64,000 nt of DNA from Burkholderiales bacterium GJ-E10 (lineage in GTDB: Bacteria > Pseudomonadota > Gammaproteobacteria > Burkholderiales > Burkholderiaceae_F): NCBI GenBank assembly GCA_000828975.1, contig AP014683.1, positions 248,001 through 312,000 on the forward strand. Direction: 5' to 3'. Numbering within the stretch: position 1 is the first letter of the stretch; every line of letters begins with the position of its first letter. The translations under genes and the position numbers were made by a program. Shown piece after piece: positions 29,290 through 40,563 of the stretch. The notes below the pieces were generated by a model. That model was given only the letters and a program-made list of their open reading frames with translations. It had not been told where the DNA came from and did no database searches.

Positions 29290-29878
29290 GAATTCCCGGA
29301 ATACCGGTGCGGCGGACCGGGGCAATGATGCGCACCCGGGTGCAGGGTGAGAAGCGTGTCCTCCGGTGATTTGGGGCGGTTTTCCGGCGCAATTTGCTGC
29401 GGGTCGCCGCCACGCGGGACCCCGTTGACGTGCGTCAACCGATTCGATTGATTACGAACGGGTTGCCGCCCCGGCCCCGCGCGCGAAGCGGCAATGTGCG
29501 GAAGCCTGACCTTGATTGCAAGGGCTTTCATGCCTCGCCTGTCGGGTTCGAGAACGATCCGGGTGGGATCGCGATGGCCGGATAAGAAGCTGCGCTTACG
29601 AACCGGGTAGGAACTGATTGTTGCGAATAAGTTCCATTCTCGTTAATTCTTTATGGATATTCCAGAAGTGGTCGCTCGTCAACGGATGAGGGGCGCCCAT
29701 GCGCCGTTCCGGTCCAGGGAAAATCCGACCCGGGCGATCTGCTCCGAAGTCGTTGCGGAGCGAAAAAAAACCTCGCTGGGAACGTGTAAATTTGATTCAC
29801 GTCGTACAAAATCCGGGTTTGCGCGGGCGGACCTTGGGTGGGTCGCCCGCGATCCGGAGTTTGCAACGGTGGACAGGT
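29290..29878. other. 589-bp divergent intergenic region
   Basis: It separates the GGDEF-EAL gene from the receiver-like gene. I see one FNR-type dyad (29425-29438), an AT-richer stretch at about 29615-29660 and a run of eight As near 29763. I find no convincing gene or terminator. Short ORFs here lack similarity and good start signals. Confidence 0.5.
29425..29438. promoter_or_regulatory. FNR/ANR-type binding site
   Basis: TTGACGTGCGTCAA is a perfect TTGAC-N4-GTCAA dyad, close to the FNR/ANR/DNR consensus. It lies 136 bases upstream of the chosen start of the c-di-GMP gene (minus strand). No -10 element sits at the ideal class II distance on either strand, so the regulated promoter is uncertain. 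Confidence 0.55.
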
Positions 29879-37914: not shown

Positions 37915-39228
37915 ATGAAACGCGATCCCCAGGAAACCTTGCGCCCCGCCAAAACCAATGCGGAGTTGATGGCGCGCCGCCGCGCGGCCATGCCGCGCGG
38001 ATCGGGGCAGGTGCATGCAATATTCGTCGACCGCGCCGAAAACGCCGAAATCTGGGACGTCGAGGGAAAGCGCTACGTCGATTTCGCCGGCGGCATCTGC
38101 GTGGTCAACACCGGCCACCGGCATCCCAAGGTGGTCGCTGCGGTGCAGGCCCAACTGGGCCGGTTCACGCACACGGCATTTCAGTTGCTCGCATACGAAC
38201 CCCTGGTCGAGTTGGCGGAACGCTGCAACGCACTGGCTCCCGGGGACACGCCGAAAAAGTCCTTTTTCGCCACGACGGGCGCGGAGGCGGTGGAGAACGC
38301 CGTCAAGATCGCGCGGGGCTACACCGGCCGGCCGGGGCTGATCGCCTTCAGCGGCGGGTTCCACGGGCGCACGATGATGACCTTGTCGCTGACCGGCAAG
38401 GTGGCACCGTACAAGACGGGAATCGGGCCGTTTCCGGGCGAGGTGTACCACGCCCGGTTTCCCAACCCGTTGTTCGGCATCGGCGTCGAGGACTCGCTGG
38501 CCTCGATCGAACACCTTTTCCGCAACGATATCGGCCCCGAGCGTGTGGCCGCGATCATCGTCGAGCCGGTGCAGGGGGAAGGCGGGTTTTACGTCGCGCC
38601 GTTCGAGTTTCTGCGGGCCCTGCGCGAATTGTGCGATCGGCATGGAATCCTGCTGATCGTCGACGAGATCCAGAGCGGTGCGGGTCGAACCGGAACCTGG
38701 TTCGCGATCGAGCATTCGGGTGTGGTGCCGGATCTGATCACGATGGCGAAATCGATGGCGGGCGGCTTCCCGATCTCCGGCGTCGTCGGGCGCTCAGACA
38801 TCATGGATGCGCTCGGACCGGGCGCGCTGGGGGGAACCTACGGTGGCAATCCCCTGGCGGCCGCTGCCGCACTGGAAGTCCTCAACGTGTTCGAACAGGA
38901 GGGGTTGCTTGCGCGGGCGCAGGCGGTCGGCGAACGCTTGCGGACCGGACTGGAGCGCATTGCCGCGCGACACGCTTGCGTGGGAGATGTCCGTGGGCTG
39001 GGCGCGATGATCGCGGCCGAATTGTTCGACGGGGGAAACCGCGATGCGCCCGCGACGGAACTGACGACGCGCATCGTCGCCGAAGCGGCCCGGCGCGGGC
39101 TGGTGCTCCTTTCGGCCGGATCGAATTCCAACGTGTTGCGGATCATGGTGCCGCTCACGGCAAGCGATGCCATTCTCGACGAAGGCTTGCGGATCCTTGA
39201 AGAGACATTCGACGCCGTCGCGGCGTGA
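37915..39228 (+). CDS. gabT: 4-aminobutyrate aminotransferase
   Basis: The 437-residue class III PLP aminotransferase has VDFAGGICVVNTGHRHPKVV, TTGAEAVENAVKIAR, SGGFHGRTMMTLSLTGKV and the DEIQSGAGRTG block. The PLP lysine lies in MAKSMAGGFP and the C-terminal block is GGTYGGNPLA. It transfers the amino group of GABA to 2-oxoglutarate; 5-aminovalerate is a possible alternative substrate. ATG 37915 follows GGAGATGAG. TACAAT at 37873-37878 is a likely -10. A GC hairpin without a T tail lies at 39237-39258. Confidence 0.9.
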   Translation: MKRDPQETLRPAKTNAELMARRRAAMPRGSGQVHAIFVDRAENAEIWDVEGKRYVDFAGGICVVNTGHRHPKVVAAVQAQLGRFTHTAFQLLAYEPLVELAERCNALAPGDTPKKSFFATTGAEAVENAVKIARGYTGRPGLIAFSGGFHGRTMMTLSLTGKVAPYKTGIGPFPGEVYHARFPNPLFGIGVEDSLASIEHLFRNDIGPERVAAIIVEPVQGEGGFYVAPFEFLRALRELCDRHGILLIVDEIQSGAGRTGTWFAIEHSGVVPDLITMAKSMAGGFPISGVVGRSDIMDALGPGALGGTYGGNPLAAAAALEVLNVFEQEGLLARAQAVGERLRTGLERIAARHACVGDVRGLGAMIAAELFDGGNRDAPATELTTRIVAEAARRGLVLLSAGSNSNVLRIMVPLTASDAILDEGLRILEETFDAVAA

Positions 39229-39270
39229 ATCCGGAGCGGGGCACCGCGCGGAGCCCCGTAACACCGCTGT

Positions 39271-39311
39271 TTGACCTAGGTCATGTCGAGTCCGGCGGCG
39301 CTTGCCACAAT
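39271..39311 (+). promoter_or_regulatory. Candidate class II FNR-dependent promoter
   Basis: TTGACCTAGGTCAT (39271-39284) is an FNR/ANR-type dyad with one mismatch. CACAAT (39306-39311) would be the -10 and predicts a start at 39318-39319, so the dyad centre falls at -41.5 or -40.5, the exact class II position. No separate -35 is needed in this class. It is followed by no protein gene on this strand but by the stem-loops at 39339-39516. Confidence 0.65.
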
Positions 39312-39317
39312 GTAGTC

Positions 39318-39516
39318 GACCGGTGGTTTCCGGTTTCAGCTGGCGCTCCTTCCCATGCGCCAGCGGCTTGTCAGGGGATGCGCCAGCGAATCTGCGCATT
39401 CCCGGGCGAGCCAGAAAGGCCCTGGCAACGGGGCCTTTCGTTGCGTGTGGTGCTGCGCCCTGGATGGGTGCGTTTCTTTTACGGGTGCGTTCGCAAGAAC
39501 GTACCCGTTTTCTTTT
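39318..39516 (+). ncRNA. Candidate FNR-activated small regulatory RNA of about 200 nt
   Basis: Four stem-loops follow the FNR-type promoter. Stem 1 (39339-39364) is a perfect 8-bp stem with loop TCCTTCCCAT, which with the preceding C reads CTCCTTCCC and matches the 16S anti-Shine-Dalgarno CTCCTT, a common small-RNA seed. Stem 2 is at 39375-39403 (ATGCGC/GCGCAT plus GGG/CCC). Stem 3 is a perfect 9-bp stem at 39414-39439. Stem 4 is the terminator at 39481-39516. No convincing ORF lies within. By layout it is an analogue of FnrS/AniS, anaerobically induced RNAs that repress translation. Expression is unproven. Confidence 0.55.
39481..39516 (+). terminator. Strong intrinsic terminator, plus strand
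   Basis: ACGGGTGCGTTC (39481-39492) and GAACGTACCCGT (39497-39508) form a 12-bp stem with one G-T pair, closed by a GCAA loop and followed by TTTTCTTTT. The tail is on the plus strand only, so it ends a rightward transcript, not purU. Confidence 0.85.
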
Positions 39517-39569
39517 GGACGCATGCCCGGCTCCGGCGCATCGGAGAGGTTGTTACAGGAACCGCCCCG

Positions 39570-40439
39570 TCATGCAAAGACGATGGTCTTGTTGCCGTCG
39601 ATGAACACCCGATCCTCCAGGTGATGCCGGAGGGCGCGTGCCAGCACGGCCGCTTCGATGTCGCGGCCCAGCGCCTCCATTTCCGCGACGGAGTGCCGGT
39701 GGTCGACCGGGCGCACGTCCTGTTCGATGATCGGCCCTTCGTCCAGATCGCTGGTCACATAGTGCGCGGTGGCGCCGATCAGCTTGACGCCTCGGGCGTG
39801 TGCCTGGGCATAGGGCGAACCGCCCTTGAAGCTGGGCAGGAACGAATGATGGATGTTGATGCAGCGGCCGGCGAAATCGCGCGTGAACCGGTCGCTCAGG
39901 ATCTGCATGTATCGCGCCAGCACGACGACATCGGTCGCCGTGTCGGCGATGAGGCGCCGCAGGGCCTCTTCCTGCGCCATCTTGTCTCCGCCCACGATCG
40001 GCAGGTGATGGAACGCCACCCCCGCGCGGGCGGCAACCGGCTCCAGCAAGGCGTGATTGGATGCGATCCCGGCGATGGTCATCGGCAATTCGCCCAGTTC
40101 CCATCGGTAGAGCAGGTCGCGCAGGCAGTGGTCGACTTTCGAGACGAGCAGCAGCGCCCGGTAGGGGTGATCGTTGCGCCGGAGCGTCCAGTCCATCGAA
40201 AGCCGGGCCGCGGTGTCGTGGAAGCCGGTGTCGAGGACCGCGCCGGAAAAGTCCGGCGGCACCACGAAAACGCAGCGCAGGAAGAATCGCCGGGTTTCCG
40301 CGTCGTCGTACTGCGACAACTCGGTGATGTCGAACTGCCGGATCGCCAGATGGTGGGTGATCGCGGCGATGAGCCCGGTCGTCGCCGGACACGTCACGCG
40401 CAAGGTGTAGCTGTTCGCCGTCTGGGTGGAGTACGCCAT
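39570..40439 (-). CDS. purU: Formyltetrahydrofolate deformylase
   Basis: The 289-residue protein has an N-terminal ACT domain (TLRVTCPATTGLIAAITHHL, FDITELSQYDD) and a formyltransferase domain. The active-site histidine and loop lie in CINIHHSFLPSFKGG and the aspartate in VTSDLDEGPIIEQDV. It hydrolyses 10-formyl-THF to formate and THF, balancing one-carbon units. It lies 47 bases downstream of tRNA-Met on the same strand and may share its transcript. No terminator for this strand is evident beyond its stop. Confidence 0.94.
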   Translation of the reverse strand: MAYSTQTANSYTLRVTCPATTGLIAAITHHLAIRQFDITELSQYDDAETRRFFLRCVFVVPPDFSGAVLDTGFHDTAARLSMDWTLRRNDHPYRALLLVSKVDHCLRDLLYRWELGELPMTIAGIASNHALLEPVAARAGVAFHHLPIVGGDKMAQEEALRRLIADTATDVVVLARYMQILSDRFTRDFAGRCINIHHSFLPSFKGGSPYAQAHARGVKLIGATAHYVTSDLDEGPIIEQDVRPVDHRHSVAEMEALGRDIEAAVLARALRHHLEDRVFIDGNKTIVFA

Positions 40440-40486
40440 CGGGACCAGGTTCGCCCCTCGGAACGGAGGGATGAGCAGAAGAGGGG

Positions 40487-40563
40487 TGGTGGCGGATCAG
40501 GGACTCGAACCCCGGACACAAGGATTATGATTCCTCTGCTCTAACCAGCTGAGCTAATCCGCC
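40487..40563 (-). tRNA. tRNA-Met, elongator (anticodon CAT)
   Basis: A 77-base cloverleaf on the minus strand: acceptor GGCGGAT pairs with ATCCGCC, and the D-arm contains AGCTCAGCTGGTTAGAGC. The anticodon loop is ATCATAA with CAT, the T-loop is TTCGAGT, and CCA is encoded. The 1-72 base pair (G-C) indicates the elongator rather than the initiator. Confidence 0.93.

Follow-up and report, generated by a model that had tools for sequence, protein, structure and literature searches.

To our knowledge, few small RNAs activated by FNR have been described (FnrS, AniS and gonococcal FnrS), and these are apparently not homologous. In Escherichia coli, FnrS is reported to carry an FNR class II site at −41.5, and no fnrS homolog is reported outside the Enterobacteriaceae (PMC3032703). 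In Neisseria meningitidis, NmsRA/NmsRB are reported to block Shine–Dalgarno regions with the UC-rich loop of their stem-loop 2 and to repress genes of the TCA cycle, sdhC, gltA and sucC among them (PMC5362039), and NrrF is reported to repress sdhCDAB (PMC5586341). The literature on FNR-regulated small RNAs gave enteric, Neisseria and Pseudomonas cases, and among the matches listed none was recognizable as the RNA considered here.

The locus studied lies within a 64-kb window, by which we mean the whole stretch of 64,000 nucleotides that was analysed, in the genome of Burkholderiales bacterium GJ-E10 (G000). An initial annotation had proposed an FNR-activated small RNA with an anti-Shine–Dalgarno loop. 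The part concerning FNR and the RNA is upheld by the dyad, its spacing in five species, the FNR proteins of the genome and the independence of the block from gabT, and the part concerning anti-Shine–Dalgarno repression is not. Comparison among species shows a conserved, structured and seemingly non-coding unit with a putative FNR-type promoter of its own; from this we infer transcription, oxygen control, a start site, a mode of action and a target.

A conserved block between gabT and purU

The gap between gabT and purU spans positions 39229–39569, and both neighbors named by the initial annotation were recovered above the cut-offs of their families: gabT with TIGR00700 (543 bits vs. 507) and purU, convergent to it, with TIGR00655 (305 bits vs. 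286). Within the gap, a block with sharp bounds of conservation runs from an FNR-type dyad at 39271 to the end of the last terminator at 39516. It contains the following features, where cells are those of a five-species alignment and G001, G002, G005 and G003 are the sister genomes of the same genus that carry the RNA:

39271–39284, + strand: FNR-type dyad TTGACCTAGGTCAT, centre 39277.5; 14/14 bases identical in G001, G005 and G002, with GTGATCCCGATCAT at the equivalent place in G003
39306–39311, + strand: predicted −10 element CACAAT; 6/6 bases identical in the same three sisters, aligned with CATAAA of G003
39318–39335, + strand: hairpin H1, 6 pairs; 96.7% of cells paired
39339–39364, + strand: hairpin H2, 8-bp stem with pyrimidine-rich loop UCCUUCCCAU (39347–39356); 97.5% of cells paired
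39365–39412, + strand: hairpin H3, its stem long and interrupted; pairing in 92% of cells, both sides changed at two pairs, variant in G003
39414–39439, + strand: hairpin H4, terminator-like; pairing in 100% of cells over 11 pairs, with a U-rich tail, UUUUCAAUU, in G003 alone
39454–39480 (stem 39454–39472), + strand: hairpin H5 with TTTCTTTT tail, first intrinsic-terminator candidate; invariant in three sisters, absent from G003
39481–39516, + strand: hairpin H6, 12 bp with GCAA loop and TTTCTTTT tail, main intrinsic-terminator candidate; absent from G003

The block occupies the same position in three of the sister genomes, G001, G002 and G005, and in the last of these purU was also observed beyond it. 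Identity of the RNA to the window is 97.5, 94.5 and 93.0% in G001, G005 and G002, respectively, and compares with 86, 76 and 77% at the fourfold sites of gabT, 90, 74 and 69% in the upstream flank (42 bases 5′ of the dyad), and 71, 62 and 71% in the downstream flank (52 bases 3′ of the last terminator); for the two more distant sisters, identity on either side of the block is about 61–74%. As the RNA and the dyad are above both the flanks and the fourfold sites, conservation starts at the dyad and stops at the terminator. From H4 to the tail of H5 (39414–39480), including a single-stranded linker, 67/67 bases are invariant in G000, G001, G005 and G002, and this invariance is not fully explained by structure alone. 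The stretch is kept more strictly than the pyrimidine-rich loop of H2.

This pattern bears on the simplest alternative, that the hairpins belong to the 3′ UTR of gabT, reached by read-through or released as a processed 3′-derived small RNA, and that the dyad is incidental. gabT and the small RNA are indeed on the same strand, only 42 bp separate gabT from the dyad, and the terminator scan gave no strong terminator between them. Conservation begins, however, at the dyad rather than at the gabT stop, the dyad and the −10 element are conserved together with their spacing, and in G003 other genes part gabT from the dyad–RNA unit; we regard the 3′ UTR reading as improbable and that of a free-standing gene, which we favor, as very probable.

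A small protein, encoded alone or by a dual-function RNA, could be suspected because this GC-rich genome has open frames running through the region. The 439-aa plus-strand frame at 39225–40544 is open but antisense to purU. A 1-base deletion puts the frame that begins at ATG 39355 out of register in G005, and in G003 this frame meets a stop after six codons; with that frame broken in both species, the coding reading was rejected. Changes between species, moreover, cluster at paired positions. A protein product is extremely improbable; the initial annotation had seen no reading frame of quality on this strand.

A putative FNR-dependent promoter

The predicted −10 element matches TATAAT at four of six positions and lies 21 bases 3′ of the dyad. 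With the start predicted at 39319, the dyad is centred at −41.5, and with the start at 39318, at −40.5; the class II spacing initially claimed is thus readable in the sequence. A sigma-70 scan of 38800–40000 found no promoter, as expected given that there is no −35 element. Relative to the predicted start, the class II layout, consisting of a dyad near −41.5 and a −10 element with no need for a −35, is conserved in four species and has its equivalent in G003. An FNR-activated class II promoter, with a deduced start position, appears well supported, and we consider activation of the RNA by FNR likely.

An oxygen-sensing FNR-type protein also seems to be available in the same genome. Among its five Crp-type helix-turn-helix matches, three are proteins with CxxCx5C, HxC and an ETVSR recognition helix, the former two of which we take to be the ligands of the FNR cluster and the latter the recognition residues. 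One protein scores above the NCBIfam Fnr cut-off of 228 bits (247.5), and the others score below it (190 and 200). FNR-like dyads of the form TTGAYNNNNRTCAW make up 41 rows (~30 places) in the genome, where the reversed control gives 11; one of them is located in the gap from fnr to a hemN-like gene, and another precedes a second fnr gene. The genome also encodes Hfq.

Two observations stand apart from the small RNA itself. Three FNR-type paralogs with cluster ligands (L144, L145 and L146) share one 3.28-Mb genome, and dyads adjoin two of the genes. Elsewhere in the window, a perfect FNR-type dyad, TTGACGTGCGTCAA, is found at 29425–29438; two divergent ORFs flank the long stretch in which it lies, where no gene was called.

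Structure of the predicted RNA

The predicted RNA folds at −114.3 kcal/mol vs. −79.9 kcal/mol in shuffled sequences (z −7.9; 0/200 shuffles as low), and the copy in G003 at z −3.9. In the alignment of the five species, paired cells amount to 95.8%, a level that 1/500 shuffles reach, and the proportion is 36–47% when the partners are slid. Only three pairs have changes on both sides, one of them a compensatory G-C to A-U change in H2 of G002, and as many are reached by 89/500 shuffles, so that covariation supports the fold modestly; the covariation score of the alignment is equalled by 32/500 shuffles. The energy z-scores agree with the fold, as do the exchanges in H6, where in G005 and G002 G-U pairs have become A-U or G-C with the stem still paired.

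In its details, the structure departs somewhat from the initial annotation. Hairpins are present as described, though about six of them form rather than four, two being terminator-like with T-rich tails. The 8-bp stem of H2 is perfect, and yet what it presents unpaired is UCCUUCCCAU and not CTCCTTCCC, the first C of which is in the stem. This loop reads UCUUUCCCAU in G002 and corresponds to the UUCUUCCGAU region in G003; an exposed pyrimidine-rich loop, as in RNAs of the NmsR type, is conserved in 5/5 species. The 12-bp, GCAA-capped terminator ending in TTTCTTTT was confirmed at 39481–39516. A GC-rich hairpin with a run of T behind it, as in an intrinsic terminator, is kept in three sisters, and G003 has H4 with a T tail.

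Terminators by themselves are unremarkable here, as the scan of 38800–40000 found two of them vs. a shuffle mean of 1.2. One might see no gene at all, just a cluster of terminators between convergent genes with a dyad arisen by chance: gabT and purU do converge, and chance alone would put about one terminator-like site in the stretch that was scanned. Against this stand the conservation of H1–H3 and the dyad far above the flanks and the retention of the dyad and H1–H4 in a different gene context in G003, which leave such a coincidence highly improbable.

A diverged copy in a fifth species

Searching with DNA alone missed the RNA in G003, where other ORFs come after gabT. A covariance model built from four copies (R1; G000, G001, G002 and G005) gave a match on the same contig, 1.6 kb after gabT (E 1.9e-5, 34.1 bits), with msrB-msrA-like ORFs separating the two. 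With R1, the opposite strand of the genuine locus in G005 outscores this match (35.4 bits), and some of what the model reads as structure is palindromic; the orthology of the G003 copy therefore rests also on synteny and base-level alignment.

The copy keeps H1, H2 with its pyrimidine loop, a variant of H3, and H4 with its U tail, and is without H5 and H6. Its dyad GTGATCCCGATCAT (TGAT-N4-ATCA) has a sequence other than that of the window and lies 28.5 bp from CATAAA, the distance seen in the window, or 30.5 bp from the −10 element if TAAAAT is taken for it; the sequence of the spacer between the two elements is not conserved. That the dyad has changed its sequence but retained its position, next to a drifting spacer, provides the best evidence that control by FNR is under selection, and the gene order suggests that the RNA travels with its own promoter, independently of gabT. 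The covariance search in relatives, one of the checks suggested at the outset, thus recovered an ortholog with the dyad and H1–H4 kept. A second FNR-type dyad lies 19 bp upstream of GTGATCCCGATCAT, giving G003 a tandem pair (L178, 1410–1443) before its copy of the RNA.

Distribution

The RNA is present in 5/7 genomes of the genus and was not found in G004 and G006, the genomes of which are 83% and 64% complete. A DNA search of 150 relatives gave five at E ≤ 0.001, including G052 with a 26-base match that has no dyad. Among 67 genomes of the family, 52 gave a match of some kind at E ≤ 1; those in G000, G001, G002 and G005 were strong and the rest short; two further short matches, in G005 and G002, had no dyad or hairpin context and were discarded. 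With stricter filters, R1 matched eight of 399 genomes of the order at E ≤ 0.05, three of them true and five weak (0.018–0.04). In 40 chosen genomes, R1 matched 12 at E ≤ 1; a second model, R2, which includes G003 and so matches it by construction, matched 25 of 40 at E ≤ 1. Those weak matches whose alignments were read fell mostly on common terminator-type hairpins and were set aside. No credible match was found in other genomes of the family (60 by DNA; 33 and 37, overlapping, by model) or outside the genus in the sampled order (399 genomes, model search with stricter filters), and plasmids and phages gave no match. Loss of the dyad, loop and terminator in relatives had been named as grounds for giving up the proposal; all three are kept within the genus and are undetected outside it.

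With Rfam, the window has two tRNAs at gathering thresholds. No family fits the RNA, the best sub-threshold E values of 0.89 (window stretch) and 0.16 (G003) being far below gathering scores, and fnrS is absent among matches up to E 10. The initial claim of a sequence unlike FnrS is supported by this, and no family for AniS or gonococcal FnrS was among the Rfam matches. On these comparisons, the locus is a putative new FNR-activated small RNA with its own sequence, outside the FnrS family.

Candidate targets of the H2 loop

General tests of the loop gave no sign of anti-Shine–Dalgarno action, the remaining element of the initial proposal. The loop complement GGGAARGAG has 115 sites in four genomes vs. 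101 for the reversed pattern, which is no enrichment. Leaving aside those in the RNA, 111 sites remain, and 73 of them were read (33/33 in G000, 25/26 in G002, 15/27 in G005 and 0/25 in G001); a plausible start lies downstream of eight of these (4/33, 4/25 and 0/15 in G000, G002 and G005), and by eye, no gene among the eight is common to the genomes. The exact complement is thus not tied to start codons, and duplex energies of the loop with 63 start regions are no better than those of shuffled loops, 15/60 of which were as low.

Target prediction with the loop, likewise suggested at the outset, left sdhA as the best lead. The sdh-gltA cluster was examined because of the NmsR targets, and the site in sdhA was found after choosing where to look. 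When complementarity was matched by species for 56 genes in four genomes, sdhA came first (P = 0.23 with permuted loops), the complementarity between its codons 3–5 and the loop extending for 7, 7, 6 and 7 bases in G000, G001, G005 and G002 (UGGGAAG in G000 and G001, CGGGAAG in G005, UGGGAAA in G002; start region at about 9540–9575 of L276, minus strand). The only changed loop among these, that of G002 (C to U), is matched by a G to A change in sdhA, keeping 7 bp. sdhA of G003 has no loop-complementary site. The sdhA site is not significant by itself, and we take it for a lead and no result; that sdhA is a target seems rather unlikely. The start region of recA (40747) was a close second in the ranking, with 7, 7, 7 and 5 bases.

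Instead of pairing through the H2 loop, the RNA could act as a sponge for a protein such as ProQ, Hfq or a CsrA-type regulator. Single-stranded stretches are few, the 67 invariant bases of H4–H5 are unexplained by the loop model, GGAU is exposed in the loop of H5, and Neisseria AniS is reported to be bound by ProQ through its terminator (PMC11912907). G003, however, does without H5 and H6, and the GGA of H3 is paired, with none seen there in G003. We consider a sponge quite unlikely, and a trans-acting repressor working through the H2 loop to have about an even chance.

Proposed function and relation to known systems

The explanation that we prefer, and hold to be somewhat probable as a whole, is that of an FNR class II small RNA repressing in trans through the H2 loop. 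Positions 39271–39516 would form a free-standing small RNA gene; at low oxygen, an FNR-type iron-sulphur regulator would bind the dyad near −41.5 and activate transcription from the CACAAT −10 element, as at class II promoters. The product would be a highly structured noncoding RNA of about 160–200 nt, or of about 120 nt in G003, where it would end at H4 with its U tail. It would most likely act in trans, the H2 loop pairing with purine-rich sequence at or just inside the translation starts of mRNAs for aerobic metabolism; such pairing would lower translation, as with NmsR and FnrS, and sdhA, encoding succinate dehydrogenase, would be the best candidate target. A bolder version, in which a genus-specific RNA independently took the role of FnrS and its FNR-induced loop shuts off sdhA through codons 3–5, with loop and target coevolving, we hold to be doubtful.

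If the preferred explanation is true, another unrelated FNR-activated RNA would speak for the view that the oxygen regulator has time and again enlisted new RNAs to turn off aerobic metabolism. The five species would also offer a compact case in which the promoter logic is kept while the RNA sequence drifts.

Among known systems, FnrS of E. coli and other enterobacteria is alike in being a free-standing small RNA with a class II site at −41.5 and an intrinsic terminator at its end; it differs in hairpin layout and gives no sequence or model match. Gonococcal FnrS and meningococcal AniS are described as FNR-activated, the gonococcal site being predicted to be of class II, and as analogous to enteric FnrS without homology. 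The gonococcal RNA is described as having a stem-loop at its 5′ end, a stretch lacking structure, and a terminator, whereas the present RNA is nearly all hairpins and has no Rfam match; the likeness is drawn from the descriptions of these RNAs. NrrF, likewise compared by description, shares the repression of sdhCDAB (here with sdhA as a candidate) but is controlled by Fur. FNR control is not part of what the consulted description says of NmsRA/NmsRB, whereas here control appears to be of the FNR type and the targets are candidates; with their UC-rich stem-loop 2 loop and repression of the TCA cycle, NmsRA/NmsRB are, among the systems considered, the closest in mechanism to what we propose.
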